Assembly (NCBI GenBank): GCA_015523335.1 | Contig: WAKM01000003.1 | Location: 1 to 60,036 of the forward strand | Reading direction: 5' to 3' | DNA: 60,036 nucleotides | Source of the DNA: Archaeoglobaceae archaeon | Lineage (GTDB): Archaea; Halobacteriota; Archaeoglobi; Archaeoglobales; Archaeoglobaceae | Shown: positions 2,026 through 27,807 of the stretch, piece by piece | How the letters are laid out: each line of letters starts with the position of its first letter | Position numbering within the stretch: position 1 is the stretch's first letter | Notes under the pieces: generated by a model | Told to the model about the DNA's origin: nothing | What the model saw: only the letters and a program-made list of their open reading frames with translations | Database searches by the model: none | Made by a program: the position numbers and the translations under genes

Positions 2026-3441
2026 ATGAGAATGTTCAATACATTCACGAAAAAGGAGGAAGAGCTAAAGCTCGATAAAACCGTTAAGATCTACGTCTGC
2101 GGGATTACGGCTTACGACTACTCCCACATAGGACACGCGAGGACAGCGGTGTTCTTTGATACCTTAAGGAGGTTTCTGGAGTTCAAAGGACATAAAGTCG
2201 TTTTCGTCCAGAACTTCACGGATGTCGATGATAAGATCGTTCACAGGGCTGTGAAGGAGGGAAAAACGCAGAGGGAGATTGCCGAGAAGTTTATCGGTGA
2301 ATACTTCAAAGATATGTCCGCTTTGAACGTAAGAAAAGCTGACTATCATCCCAAAGTCACGGATCACATCCGAGACATAATAGATGCGGTTCGAAAGCTG
2401 GTCGAGAAGGGATACGCCTACGAGGTTGAGGGGGAAAACGGAAGGGATGTTTACTTCCACGTTCCCTCTTTTCCCTCATACGGAAAACTTTCGGGCTTTA
2501 GCTTAGAAGAGCTTAACAGGCACAGGATAGAGCCGGATCCGAGGAAAAAGGATGTAAAGGATTTCGCGCTCTGGAAGTCGGCGAAGGAGGAAGATATAAG
2601 GGCTAAAGCGGTTTTCGATTCCCCTTGGGGCTTGGGCAGACCGGGATGGCATATAGAGTGCTCTGTGATGTCAGCCAAGTATTTGGGCGTCCCATTTGAC
2701 ATCCACGGCGGAGGTAAGGATCTGATATTCCCGCACCACGAAAACGAGAGGGCACAGAGCTACGCTTTATTTGGAGTCGAACCGGTTCGCTACTGGATTC
2801 ACAACGACTTTGTGACGATTGGAGGGGAGAAGATGAGCAAGAGCCTGGGCAACATCGTTAGGATCAGGGATGTCCTACGGAAATTCGACGGAGAGGTTTT
2901 GAGATACTTCCTGATTTCAGCCCATTACAGAAGCTCGCTCGATTACAGCGAGAAAGCTTTGGAGAGGGCTAAGAAGTCATACAACTCGCTCAAGAATTCT
3001 TTGGAGTTGCTGGATATGGAGATAGCATATCTTAAAACCTTCGGAGAAAATAGGGAATCCGCAAACTGCAACGCTACGGTCGATAGCTTCTTCAGGAGAT
3101 TCATCGATGCGATGAATGACGACATGAACACACCGAAGGCTTTGGCGGTTCTGCACGAATTTTCAAGTTTCATAAACAAGAACGTCAGCGCCATGAGCTT
3201 GGAAGAACTCGAATACTGCTTCGACAGATTAAGGCAACTCTGCTGGATCCTTGGCTTATTCGAGAACTATCGCAGAATACCGATACTATCGAGCGAGTTA
3301 GCCGAACTGATAAGAGAAAGAGAAATCGCAAGAAAGGAGAGAAATTTCGAAAAAGCGGATGCTATAAGGAACAAATTCAGAGATATGGGTTATCTGCTCA
3401 TAGATACTCCGAAAGGAACGAGATGGAAGCTTGTTAGATAA
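2026..3441 (+). CDS. cysS: Cysteinyl-tRNA synthetase
   Basis: This 471-residue class I aminoacyl-tRNA synthetase charges tRNA-Cys in the cytoplasm. The HIGH motif is at residues 34-37 (SHIGHART) and the KMSKS motif at 269-273. Cys25 in YVCGITAY and the GWHIECS and HHENERAQ stretches match the zinc site. Full family length is present. A second in-frame ATG two codons in is an alternative start. Not all F420-using archaea have CysRS, since some methanogens use the SepRS route, so its presence is informative for tRNA-Cys charging here. Confidence 0.97.
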   Translation: MRMFNTFTKKEEELKLDKTVKIYVCGITAYDYSHIGHARTAVFFDTLRRFLEFKGHKVVFVQNFTDVDDKIVHRAVKEGKTQREIAEKFIGEYFKDMSALNVRKADYHPKVTDHIRDIIDAVRKLVEKGYAYEVEGENGRDVYFHVPSFPSYGKLSGFSLEELNRHRIEPDPRKKDVKDFALWKSAKEEDIRAKAVFDSPWGLGRPGWHIECSVMSAKYLGVPFDIHGGGKDLIFPHHENERAQSYALFGVEPVRYWIHNDFVTIGGEKMSKSLGNIVRIRDVLRKFDGEVLRYFLISAHYRSSLDYSEKALERAKKSYNSLKNSLELLDMEIAYLKTFGENRESANCNATVDSFFRRFIDAMNDDMNTPKALAVLHEFSSFINKNVSAMSLEELEYCFDRLRQLCWILGLFENYRRIPILSSELAELIREREIARKERNFEKADAIRNKFRDMGYLLIDTPKGTRWKLVR

Positions 3442-3560
3442 CGCGTTCTGAGAAAGATTTTTAAATCTTTTACGTAAATACCCATAAGATAGTGTGTTCC
3501 TAATTACCACTCCATTGTTACTAATTTTACACCATTAAAAATTCGGGGAGGTGATTCTGA

Positions 3561-4745
3561 ATGAAGGTATGGCTGATAGGTGCTTATGGAATTGTATCCA
3601 CGACGGCGATGGTCGGAGCGAAAGCCTTGGAGAAAGGGCTGATCGATAAGACCGGCTTGGTTTCAGAGTTACCTTGCTTCAGCAAGCTTTCGGAATATGT
3701 TCCTCTGAAGTTTGAATTCGGCGGACACGACATTAGGCCTCTTCCAACGGCTTACGATGCCGCTTTGGAGCATTGGGAGATGAACCGTCACTTTGACAAG
3801 CCAATACTCGATGCAGTTGCTGATGATTTGAAGAAGATCAAAGCGTGCAAGGGAACGGCGTTGAACTGCGGAGAAGGAATAAAGGAGCTCGGCAGATTGG
3901 AAACGCTTGAGGACGAAGGACTAACGCTGAAGGAGATCGTCGATAGGATAGAGAAGGATATGAAAGCATTTGCAGACGATGAGACCGTCGTGATAAACGT
4001 AGCTTCAACCGAGCCTCTACCAAACTACAACGAGGAGTATCACGGCAGTTTGGAGGGATTCGAGACGATGATCGACGAAGATAAAAAGGAGTATGCGAGC
4101 GCGAGCATGCTTTATGCATACGTAGCTCTTAAATTGGGACTGCCTTACGGAAACTTCACGCCGAGCCCGGGTTCAAGCATTCCGGCGTTGAAGGAGCTTG
4201 CTGAGAAGAAAGGGGTGCCTCACGCCGGAAACGACGGTAAGACCGGAGAGACTTTGGTTAAGACCACCTTGGCTCCGATGTTCGCATACAGAAACCTGAA
4301 AATATTGGGCTGGATGAGCTACAACATTCTCGGAGATTTGGACGGAAAGGTTTTGAGCCACAGAGAAAACAAGGAGAGCAAGGTTATAAGCAAGGATAGA
4401 GTGCTCGAAAAGATGCTCGGATACGCACCATACAGCATAACGGAAATCCAGTTCTTCCCGAGCTTAGTCGACAACAAGACGGCGTTCGACTTCATACACT
4501 TCGAGGGATTCTTGGGCACGAAGATGAAGTTCTACTTCATCTGGGACGGAATCGATGCAATAGTTGCCGCTCCGCTGATACTGGACATCGCGAGGTTCCT
4601 ACTATTTGCAAAGAAGAAGGGGATCAGCGGCGTCGTCAAGGAGATGGGGTTCTTCTTCAAGAGCCCGATGGAAACGAACATCGTAAACACCCACCAGCAG
4701 TTCGAGATTCTCAAGAAGTGGTTCGCCGAGCTTGCTGAGGGCTAA
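3561..4745 (+). CDS. ino1: Myo-inositol-1-phosphate synthase
   Basis: The 394-residue protein converts glucose-6-phosphate to L-myo-inositol-1-phosphate using NAD. In Archaeoglobus this feeds synthesis of the compatible solute di-myo-inositol-phosphate and of inositol phospholipids. It starts with a Rossmann-type segment (VWLIGAYGIVSTTAM) and has family stretches such as NVASTEPLPN and FTPSPGSSIPAL. A strong ribosome-binding site, GGGGAGGTGAT, lies at 3544-3554 shortly before the ATG. The gene stands alone, with a 119-base upstream gap carrying AT-rich promoter-like sequence. Confidence 0.93.
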   Translation: MKVWLIGAYGIVSTTAMVGAKALEKGLIDKTGLVSELPCFSKLSEYVPLKFEFGGHDIRPLPTAYDAALEHWEMNRHFDKPILDAVADDLKKIKACKGTALNCGEGIKELGRLETLEDEGLTLKEIVDRIEKDMKAFADDETVVINVASTEPLPNYNEEYHGSLEGFETMIDEDKKEYASASMLYAYVALKLGLPYGNFTPSPGSSIPALKELAEKKGVPHAGNDGKTGETLVKTTLAPMFAYRNLKILGWMSYNILGDLDGKVLSHRENKESKVISKDRVLEKMLGYAPYSITEIQFFPSLVDNKTAFDFIHFEGFLGTKMKFYFIWDGIDAIVAAPLILDIARFLLFAKKKGISGVVKEMGFFFKSPMETNIVNTHQQFEILKKWFAELAEG

Positions 4746-24189: not shown

Positions 24190-24258
24190 GGGTTTATAAC
24201 CTTATGACAGCCGTTCAGACGGAAAGAGTTTTTATTTGATTCTGCAAGTTTGAAAGTG

Positions 24259-24498
24259 ATGCTGGAGAAATTTAAACGGATAACAATCGATCCAAAAATT
24301 TGCCATGGAAAACCTGTTTTTAAGGGGACAAGAGTATTAGTATCTGATGTTCTTGAGATGCTAGGTTCTGGGATGAGCATAGATGAAATTCTTGAAGAAT
24401 ATCCTCAACTTAGCAAGGAGGCAATACTAGAAGCTTTACGCTTGGCTTCTGAGTTATTAAGAAGGGAAAGACATGTCATACATCGTCCTTCTCGATGA
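24259..24498 (+). CDS. DUF433 antitoxin (COG2442)
   Basis: From ATG 24259 the product is 79 residues. FKRITIDPKICHGKPVFKG is the DUF433 signature (ICxGxPxxxGTR), followed by a helix-turn-helix half (SIDEILEEYPQLSKEAILEAL). It is the antitoxin partner of the DUF5615 gene, which overlaps it by 26 bases. A TATA-like TTTTTATTT at 24228-24236 precedes the start. An in-frame TTG at 24250 is a less likely start. Confidence 0.88.
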   Translation: MLEKFKRITIDPKICHGKPVFKGTRVLVSDVLEMLGSGMSIDEILEEYPQLSKEAILEALRLASELLRRERHVIHRPSR

Positions 24499-24805
24499 AA
24501 ACGTTCCAAAGAGTGTTTATAGATCCCTCAAAAGTAGAAGTCATTACGTAGAATATGTGCCGAAAGGGGTAAGTGACGATGAAGTTATAAGGATTGCAAG
24601 GGAAAGGGATCTAATTCTGATCACGAGGGATTCCGATTTTGCTGATGAATTGTCATATCCTCCGAATACTCACCCCGAAATTATTGTACTGAGAATTCAT
24701 CCATCCTTGCCCAATGTTATCGTAGATAAGCTCGCAGGAGTCTTACAACTCAACCTTAAAATTAATGAAAAATTATTATCGTTTACAACGACAGAGTCGA
24801 GGTAA
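24473..24805 (+). CDS. DUF5615 PIN-like toxin
   Basis: The 110-residue PIN-like nuclease fold has LLDENVPKSVYRSLKSR at the N-terminus with the first acidic residues (Asp8, Glu9). GVSDDEVIRIARERDLILIT and RDSDF carry the second acidic group. These are the usual catalytic residues of this family, so the protein looks intact. It should be an RNA-cleaving toxin held by the DUF433 protein translated just before it. It is the only apparently complete toxin-antitoxin pair in the island. Confidence 0.88.
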   Translation: MSYIVLLDENVPKSVYRSLKSRSHYVEYVPKGVSDDEVIRIARERDLILITRDSDFADELSYPPNTHPEIIVLRIHPSLPNVIVDKLAGVLQLNLKINEKLLSFTTTESR

Positions 24806-25068: not shown

Positions 25069-25258
25069 TTACTGCTGGTACTTTTTGATCATTTTAACGA
25101 ATTCATCTAAACTGAGATTTTCAGTTTTTTTCTCTAAGTTCTTTAACGGAATCGCCAGATCTTTTAACGATGTGCTGAAGGAATATAGCGAACTCCTCGT
25201 TTGTAAGTTCTCTTTTAAGAATCTCTAAGGCTTTAGCCATTATCTCTGATTTAATCAT
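25069..25258 (-). pseudogene. Antitoxin-like small protein broken at a run of seven A
   Basis: ATG 25258 gives MIKSEIMAKALEILKRE and a frame that stops at 25121 after 45 residues. In the coding strand the stop follows a run of seven A (25125-25131). Reading six A instead joins it to TENLSLDEFVKMIKKYQQ ending at 25069, giving a smooth protein of about 62 residues. It resembles small helical archaeal antitoxin-type proteins, but I cannot name the family. The change may be decay, sequencing error, or slippage that makes two products. Confidence 0.5.
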
Positions 25259-25314
25259 AGCTATATCAAAAGATAGATGTAACCTATTTAACTTGTGAAA
25301 GAAGTAAGAAGAGT

Positions 25315-25872
25315 ATGAAAGTTCGGGTGCTAATTAGGGGGAAGGTGCACGATGTTGGGTATAGACCGTTTCTGCTTGGTATAGCTGAGTCGTTAGAGAT
25401 TGAAAGATTTTTCGCTGATAATGTTTACGTTGATGAGAAGCAAGCGGTAGAAGTGCTGGTAGAAGACGAAGATGAAAAAGTTAAAGCCTTTGTTGAGTTG
25501 GTGAAGAAGAAAAAGCCTGAAAATGCTGAAGTTGAGAGTATAGATGTTGAGGAATACGATGGATATGTAATGAAGACTGAATCATATTACCGCTACCTAA
25601 CCGCTATGCAATTGGCTAAAATCGCTACCTATGGAGGGAAAATGTTACAAAAGCAAGACGAGACGATAAGAGTAATAAGAGAGGAATCTGAGAATATCAG
25701 AAAGGAGTTAGGGGTAAAGATTGATTCTGTTGGAAAGAAGGTAGAAGCTGTAGGGGAAAAAGTAGACCTGCTCAGATACGATTTGAGGGAATACATGGAA
25801 ACGCATTTAAAGAAGATCTACGCTGAAATAGCAGAAATTAAGAACGCTCTTAAGAAGGCTGGAATAATGTAG
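25315..25872 (+). CDS. Acylphosphatase-like domain fused to a coiled coil
   Basis: Residues 1-90 match acylphosphatase: RGKVHDVGYRPF with the catalytic Arg17, and FFADNVYVDE with Asn36 about where the catalytic Asn belongs. Residues 100-185 form a charged helical region with heptad-like repeats (VIREESENIRKELGVKID, VGKKVEAVGEKVDLLRYDL), a long coiled coil. Normal acylphosphatases are about 90 residues and end after the first domain. The fused helix suggests an oligomeric scaffold or a regulatory use of the fold. ATG at 25315 is the natural start. Function unknown. Confidence 0.7.
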   Translation: MKVRVLIRGKVHDVGYRPFLLGIAESLEIERFFADNVYVDEKQAVEVLVEDEDEKVKAFVELVKKKKPENAEVESIDVEEYDGYVMKTESYYRYLTAMQLAKIATYGGKMLQKQDETIRVIREESENIRKELGVKIDSVGKKVEAVGEKVDLLRYDLREYMETHLKKIYAEIAEIKNALKKAGIM

Positions 25873-25959
25873 TTTTGAATATTTTTATTTGACCATTTTA
25901 ATTTTAATCTTGATGTAACGTAATGGATTGTTACTTTCTCGGAGAAACATTTCCTAAAA

Positions 25960-26050
25960 TTTATATGTTAGCTTGCTAAAGAAGGGTCAGGGCCGGGGTG
26001 TGGCGGGCACCCCGAGCCCCTCATAAAAAGCCCCTAAGGGCGGAAGGCAG
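25960..26050 (+). promoter_or_regulatory. TATA box and GC-rich structured leader of the winged-helix gene
   Basis: TTTATATG (25960-25967) is a good TATA box and predicts transcription from about 25990. From that base the RNA would fold at once: GGGCCGGGGTG (25990-26000) pairs with CACCCCGAGCCC (26008-26019) in 11 base pairs, with one bulged A (26015) and a 7-base loop. A second small hairpin, GCCC(CTAA)GGGC, is at 26030-26041. A purine-rich ribosome-binding site GGAAGG (26042-26047) precedes the GTG at 26051. The block is far more GC-rich than its surroundings. It could be a cis-regulatory leader or a small RNA. Confidence 0.6.
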
Positions 26051-26401
26051 GTGTTCTATACGATAGGGTGTATCGATCAAAAACTAAAAAACCTTTCGGA
26101 TGTAAGGTGTGATGAAGCGCTAATACTTGTCAAGCTTAGGGGTAGTATTAGTGGTATTACGGCTTCTCAATTGGTTCGATTCTTCCGGAAGGTGTATAGG
26201 CATTTATCTAAGCAAGCTCTTATAAAAAGAGTTCACCGAGTTTTGGACAAATTAAAGGCTGAAGGTTTGGTTAAGTCGGAAGTAATCAGTAATTTCCGTT
26301 TTGCGAGGCTAACGGAGAAAGGTCATTCTTCTATACCCGATGCAGTTGACTCGTTTTCAATACTTTTGCGAGCTTTCTTAGCGACATTATGTAAAACTTG
26401 A
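26051..26401 (+). CDS. Winged-helix DNA-binding protein
   Basis: The 116-residue protein starts at GTG 26051. The centre (ASQLVRFFRKVYRHLSKQAL, then RVHRVLDKLKAEGLVKSEV, then FRFARLTEKG) has the helix-helix-turn-wing layout of a winged-helix regulator. The C-terminal 25 residues are hydrophobic. It is preceded by an unusual structured leader, so autoregulation at RNA level is possible. No closer family can be named. Confidence 0.6.
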   Translation: MFYTIGCIDQKLKNLSDVRCDEALILVKLRGSISGITASQLVRFFRKVYRHLSKQALIKRVHRVLDKLKAEGLVKSEVISNFRFARLTEKGHSSIPDAVDSFSILLRAFLATLCKT

Positions 26402-26992: not shown

Positions 26993-27807
26993 AAACCCTT
27001 ACTCTACAGACCTTTTGACGTTAGATGGACGTATTTCTTTGACAAATCACGATCTTTTGTAGCGTATCCAAGATATAAGGTAATGAAACACCCTGTTTTG
27101 GGTGAGAATGTCGGTTTAATTGCAATTAGACAGATAGTTTTAAGCGATTGCAGTGTTGAAGAGTATAATCCTATTTTTGTTTCAAGAACAATTGTAGATA
27201 GACGATTTTTCTTGAGTAATAGAAGTGCTTGTGCGATATTTCCACTCTACCGCTACGAAGAAGACAACAACAAGAAACTCATAAAGATCCCTAACATAAA
27301 GCCAGAATTTCTAAAGCTGATTAAAGAAAAATACAATGCAACACCCGAAGACTTCTTATACTACGCTTATGCAGTGCTACACGATCCAAAATACCGTGAA
27401 AGATATGCTGAATTCCTAAAAATCGATTTTCCAAGAATTCCATTATACGATAAAGAGACATTTGACAAATACAAGCAAATCGGAAAAGAACTCGTCGAGC
27501 TACACCTCATGAAAAAAGATATCCCAATAGACTTGGCTGGAAAGATAAAAGGCGAAAGTCTGAAGGTTGATACGATAACGATCGCAAAGATGTTTGGATA
27601 AACAACAAAACCATTCTGCTTGGAATTCCAGAGGACGTTTGGAATTACAAAATCGGTGGTTATCAAGTCATAGAGAAATACCTTAAGGGTAGAAAACGAA
27701 GAGAACTCAGCTTAGACGAGTTGGAGCATATATACCGAGTCGTTGAAATCATAAAGAGAACAATCGAGCTTGTAAATAAACTGAAAGATATAAGACCCAA
27801 AAGCTAG
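26993..27807 (+). pseudogene. C-terminal fragment of an ISP-type restriction-modification enzyme
   Basis: The frame begins after a stop at 26990 and reads LLYRPFDVRWTYF at once, the conserved segment of single-polypeptide (ISP) and related adenine-methylase restriction enzymes. It continues through YNPIFVSRTIVDRRFFLSN and TPEDFLYYAYAVLHDPKYRE to a stop at 27599. A one-base loss in GCAAAGATG near 27590 separates it from the family end GIPEDVWNYKIGGYQVIEKY, which stops at 27807. The nuclease, helicase and methylase domains are absent upstream. Internal ATG 27083 gives a 172-residue piece that could be made but has no known use. Confidence 0.75.

Follow-up and report, generated by a model that had tools for sequence, protein, structure and literature searches.

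Several described systems provide a context for the locus reported here. In rolling-circle plasmids of staphylococci, conserved blocks carrying qacC or lnuA end at the double-strand origin (dso), the rep gene beyond it is more divergent, and the pattern has been explained by premature nicking (PMC5037232). Among archaeal plasmids, the rolling-circle origin of pTP2 from Thermococcus prieurii (NC_021208) works in T. kodakarensis (PMC5988781), and pGT5 has a leader hairpin followed, about 210 nt further on, by the described dso, which is internal to rep. In the SNJ2/Rep-Arvir replicons a hairpin origin serves a Rep protein fused to a MarR-like winged helix-turn-helix (wHTH), and for these non-HUH proteins a role of the MarR-like domain in origin recognition has been argued (PMC13107129). 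For pGS5, the 2.8 kb plasmid of Archaeoglobus profundus, we found no replication experiments in the papers searched, and the later papers found that mention it say nothing of Rep motifs or of an origin.

The locus lies in 60,036 nucleotides of Archaeoglobaceae DNA, hereafter the window. We propose, with a probability of about 0.57, that a GC-rich hairpin in this chromosomal stretch comes from a pGS5-type rolling-circle plasmid, where it formed the promoter-leader and probably also the double-strand origin, and that it became stranded here. The first part of this reading, that the hairpin is a rep leader of such a plasmid, is very likely; the further step to a double-strand origin is the less secure one and has somewhat better than even odds.

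The hairpin and its promoter

On the forward strand of the window, positions 25990-26000 (5' arm GGGCCGGGGTG) pair across the loop TGGCGGG with positions 26008-26019 (3' arm CACCCCG(A)GCCC), which gives 11 base pairs and one bulged A at 26015. Direct reading and folding agree on this, and the stem matches the initial annotation exactly. Positions 25985-26034 are the most GC-rich 50-mer of the whole window (0.72), and the hairpin is also the best 34-mer fold on the forward strand of the 60 kb (-25.0 kcal/mol, versus -18.8 kcal/mol for the runner-up). An 86-nt segment containing the hairpin has a predicted fold of -34 kcal/mol, which was equalled in 54 of 200 composition-matched shuffles (z -0.53, no excess folding). 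The oddity of the segment is therefore a GC island with a palindrome, not folding beyond what its composition provides.

The rep-remnant promoter has its TATA box, TTTATATG, at 25960-25967 (forward strand), with the centre of the box 26 nt upstream of the stem; promoter and hairpin are in register. The same box is identical in the three related genomes discussed below, and a TATA-like stretch occurs in register in pGS5. Between the TATA box and the predicted transcript start is a palindrome, TTAGCTTGCTAA (25968-25979, strand not assigned), which is retained in one relative (G015), has one arm altered in the other two (G021 and G070), and possibly serves as an operator. Small inverted repeats (GTAAC..GTTAC and GGAGA/TTTCC) are located farther upstream at 25915-25953 and are conserved in all four copies of the locus; they may be Rep-binding sites or a single-strand origin (sso). 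No tRNA was found in the window.

On the other side, the stem is followed by the tail CTCATAAAA (26020-26028, forward strand), which is shared with pGS5 (CACATAAAA). The initial annotation further drew a second small hairpin (26030-26041, forward strand) and a possible pseudoknot between the loop and the downstream CCCC run. The window sequence allows both, whereas G015, G021 and G070 have neither.

A rep remnant and its plasmid counterparts

The gene downstream of the hairpin runs from a GTG at 26051 to a stop at 26401 (forward strand) and encodes 116 amino acids. It was taken for a winged-helix regulator; the frame is open, but the product is not an ordinary regulator and corresponds to the N-terminal DNA-binding domain of a rolling-circle Rep whose HUH domain is missing. 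A search of 72,556 plasmids with the 116-aa product retrieved ORF1 of pGS5 (E 3e-14), with 39% identity over 90 amino acids at the N-terminus of that 463-aa protein. Although pGS5 ORF1 is annotated as a MarR regulator, the full set of three motifs that characterise HUH rolling-circle initiators is present in it (VFLTVTLP, NFHKHIVFFG and DYIKKYIIK), and these align with those of ORF1 of Halorubrum virus HRPV-1 and of the pTP2 Rep; its match to the Pfam family REP_ORF2-G2P is weak and below the cutoff. The predicted structure of the winged-helix product had a mean pLDDT of 46 and was left out of the argument.

The genome to which the window belongs has the winged-helix part only, and the catalytic HUH domain (motifs I-III) is absent from it. 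In G015 the middle of Rep is deleted: motifs I and II are gone, the winged helix is joined directly to the part around motif III, and a frame break truncates the gene further. Since the window lacks the HUH domain and G015 retains motif III only, the window locus is a remnant and not a working replicon. Additional Rep fragments occur in G032, G002 and G014, and the remnants in G021, G070 and G032 are decayed. Judged by sequence, the Rep pieces of the window's genome and its relatives are remnants of pGS5-type plasmids; convincing homologues of pGS5 ORF2 and ORF3 were not found in the window. The G002 sequence (locus coordinates 2529-4436) is a near-complete pGS5-like Rep that is split into several frames and has a different N-terminus, and no strong hairpin is present upstream of it. 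The pGS5-like G014 fragment (locus coordinates 1425-1892) is preceded, at a distance of about 310 bases, by a tRNA-Asp gene, which possibly marks an old plasmid integration site.

In pGS5 itself a GC hairpin occurs immediately upstream of rep (its 34-mer begins 52 nt before the gene), about 25 nt downstream of the TATA-like stretch, and it is the strongest hairpin of the plasmid (-20.0 versus -12.0). Its coordinates are 2790-2802 plus 1-17 in the pGS5 record and 1351-1380 in pArcpr01; the pGS5 record starts inside the hairpin, so that linear searches miss it. The window hairpin aligns with that of pGS5 as TCAGGGCCGG-GGTGTGGCGGGCACCCCGAGCCCCTCATAAAA with TCGGGGTCGGCGGTAT-GCGG--ACCGCGGCCCCCACATAAAA, and this score was reached in two of 1000 local shuffles. 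The score of the window against pArcpr01 was reached in one of 1000 local shuffles, yet in 6 of 300 shuffles of the whole plasmid, and by such an unstructured whole-plasmid comparison the similarity between the window and pGS5 hairpins is modest. A covariance model built from the four chromosomal copies only, with pGS5 excluded, had as its top match the full-length pArcpr01 hairpin (18.3 bits, E 2.3e-4 under a rough calibration), whose stem is a perfect 12 bp; pArcpr01 has one C more than the pGS5 record. The window and pGS5/pArcpr01 (NC_012890, NC_013742) share a similar hairpin within the same order and spacing of TATA-like box, GC hairpin, CATAAAA tail and a rep with a wHTH-type N-terminus. 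They differ in that the plasmid Rep is complete (463 aa, with the HUH motifs) and no acp gene accompanies it, whereas the window copy is chromosomal and without the HUH domain.

The HUH Rep of pTP2 is related to that of pGS5 (E 7e-6), and this plasmid likewise has a TATA box, then 28 nt, then an 11-pair GC stem, and a first ORF whose product, judged by eye, resembles a winged helix. However, the loop and stem sequence of pTP2 is unrelated to that of the window in unstructured alignment, its ORFs are split, and it is a functional plasmid. The likeness to the Rep-Arvir replicons also has limits, as their Rep is non-HUH and the haloarchaeal origin is located downstream of rep (PMC13107129). In pGT5 the strongest hairpin (positions 27-60, -28.3 versus -14.7) lies between a TATA-like box and rep. 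A leader hairpin is not a universal mark of archaeal rolling-circle plasmids: the one before rep is the strongest of the plasmid in pGS5 and in pGT5 and the runner-up in pTP2, and pTN1, pTP1 and the T. eurythermalis plasmid have no such leading hairpin.

Copies in relatives and the junction at the hairpin

Three further genomes of the Archaeoglobaceae hold the segment: G015, of genus g12, and the two genus g7 members G021 and G070. Searches with DNA and with the covariance model placed the hairpin in four of the 59 genomes of the class, the window's included, and returned no additional copies in them; viral contigs yielded neither the hairpin nor relatives of Rep, wHTH or acp. In each of the four the hairpin lies between acp and the winged-helix gene or what remains of it, and it always adjoins a rep remnant. 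Among the four sequences 8 of the 11 stem pairs are invariant, one C-G is changed to U-G, and 3 of 44 cells (pairs by copies) are broken, all of them in G021 and G070, whose winged-helix gene is without its N-terminal part.

Upstream of the hairpin lies acp (25315-25872, forward strand), an accessory multi-copy gene that encodes an acylphosphatase domain and a coiled coil and is part of a conserved block ending at the hairpin. The acp family is mobile, present in 30 of 55 genomes of the family, and often situated at contig ends or in tandem. We considered the hairpin as a companion of acp; the other acp copies examined, including a second, 96% identical copy in G015, have no such hairpin downstream. 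This ties the hairpin to the winged-helix gene, and so to rep rather than to acp.

The window and G015, which come from two genera, are about 94% identical, noncoding positions included, up to the hairpin, and 70% identical beyond it. From 25101 to 26025, 876 of 922 aligned bases are the same; in the noncoding sequence left of the junction the count is 141 of 151, versus 177 of 252 beyond 26025 (Fisher p 7e-9). Synonymous divergence between the two is 0.18 for acp and 1.38 for the winged-helix gene. The sharp change in identity and in synonymous divergence marks a recombination junction right where the hairpin ends on its 3' side, within the tail where the G015 similarity falls. Drift along a single lineage fails to account for the drop in identity; two histories come together at this edge. 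Strong identity of G021 and G070 to the window ends at the same point (junction placed by eye), and in both genomes a Rep piece without its first half begins within about 20 nt of it.

A junction at this position is as expected of a rolling-circle nick site. The staphylococcal DSO-gene-SSO elements offer a parallel, in that there too a highly conserved gene block (qacC, lnuA) ends at an origin and is joined to a more divergent rep (PMC5037232). Unlike them, the window block lies in an archaeal chromosome and has acp as its gene, and the nick site and sso are putative.

Origin, leader RNA or decoy

If the hairpin is an origin, the plasmid rep would have been transcribed from the TATA box, with the hairpin as the first bases of the transcript. 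Recognition of the hairpin region most likely falls to the winged helix at the N-terminus of Rep, and the HUH domain would nick one of the strands at the hairpin or immediately 3' of it, from where rolling-circle replication would start. Occupancy of the site by Rep would also lower rep transcription. With the winged-helix domain as the only part left as an open frame in the window, the site could no longer fire from its own gene. Two features looked for in a dso, a hairpin or inverted repeat beside rep and recombination junctions at the site, are both present. Counting against an origin, the pGT5 dso lies within rep, and the three Thermococcus rolling-circle plasmids named above lack a leading hairpin before it.

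No known nick-site consensus was found in or near the hairpin, and together with the position of the pGT5 origin this makes a leader RNA controlling rep the main rival. The hairpin would then act on the stability or translation of the pGS5-type rep mRNA, or on copy number, the origin would be elsewhere, and the window would hold a leftover of the leader. A role as 5' leader RNA for rep is possible in its own right: in the window, in pGS5 and in pTP2 alike, 25-28 nt separate a TATA-like box from the start of the stem, the RNA form of the hairpin should stay folded at 80 C (predicted -10.1 kcal/mol), and the pGT5 hairpin sits apart from the described dso. This explanation, however, leaves the junction at the 3' edge of the hairpin unaccounted for, and the four copies are without compensatory changes; we regard it as unlikely, if the most serious of the alternatives.

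Less probable still is that the host has domesticated the locus as a decoy, keeping a solo winged helix and a hairpin site that repress or block incoming pGS5-type plasmids. The open frame without an HUH domain in the window, the fused frame with the catalytic domain deleted in G015, and a dN/dS of 0.26 between the two would be consistent with such a function. However, the signal of purifying selection may stem from plasmid life, the remnants in G021, G070 and G032 have decayed, and that in G015 has been truncated further. The model of the initial annotation, in which a chromosomal regulator of Archaeoglobales is controlled by an independent, conserved structured noncoding RNA or by a leader akin to a riboswitch, is very improbable and largely refuted: a GC island in AT-rich archaeal DNA with promoter and hairpin in register would suit it, but the element recurs in so few genomes of the class and always beside rep remnants, has a counterpart on a plasmid, gives nothing relevant in Rfam at gathering or permissive thresholds, and shows no two-sided change in 11 pairs among four sequences, a comparison of low power. 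The annotation is thus partly supported, namely for a structured element at the predicted transcript start of the winged-helix gene and not for a conserved cis-regulatory or noncoding RNA.

Under the preferred reading, a stranded rep leader and probable origin, what looked like an RNA motif becomes a prediction, open to testing, of where the pGS5 origin lies. Once mapped, such an origin would provide hyperthermophilic Archaeoglobi with a small replicon and would help to mark plasmid remnants in their chromosomes. GC islands in AT-rich archaeal DNA are usually taken to signal noncoding RNA and call for caution, since they can also be origins of plasmids or leaders of rep genes. More tentatively, and with the odds against it, the hairpin may be the nick site of an uncharacterised class of archaeal rolling-circle origin (the pGS5 type, with a wHTH-HUH Rep and an origin that overlaps the start of the rep transcript), and exchange driven by Rep at this site may have spread the acp block among replicons and genera; if true, this spread would be an archaeal counterpart of the staphylococcal DSO-gene-SSO mobilisation.

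The neighbourhood of the locus contains further genes of note. At 24250-24805 of the window a DUF433 gene is followed by a DUF5615/PIN-like gene, an arrangement that resembles a toxin-antitoxin pair, and at 27083-27601 there is a fragment of a Type ISP/IIG restriction-methylation enzyme, comprising its specificity domain and apparently a remnant.
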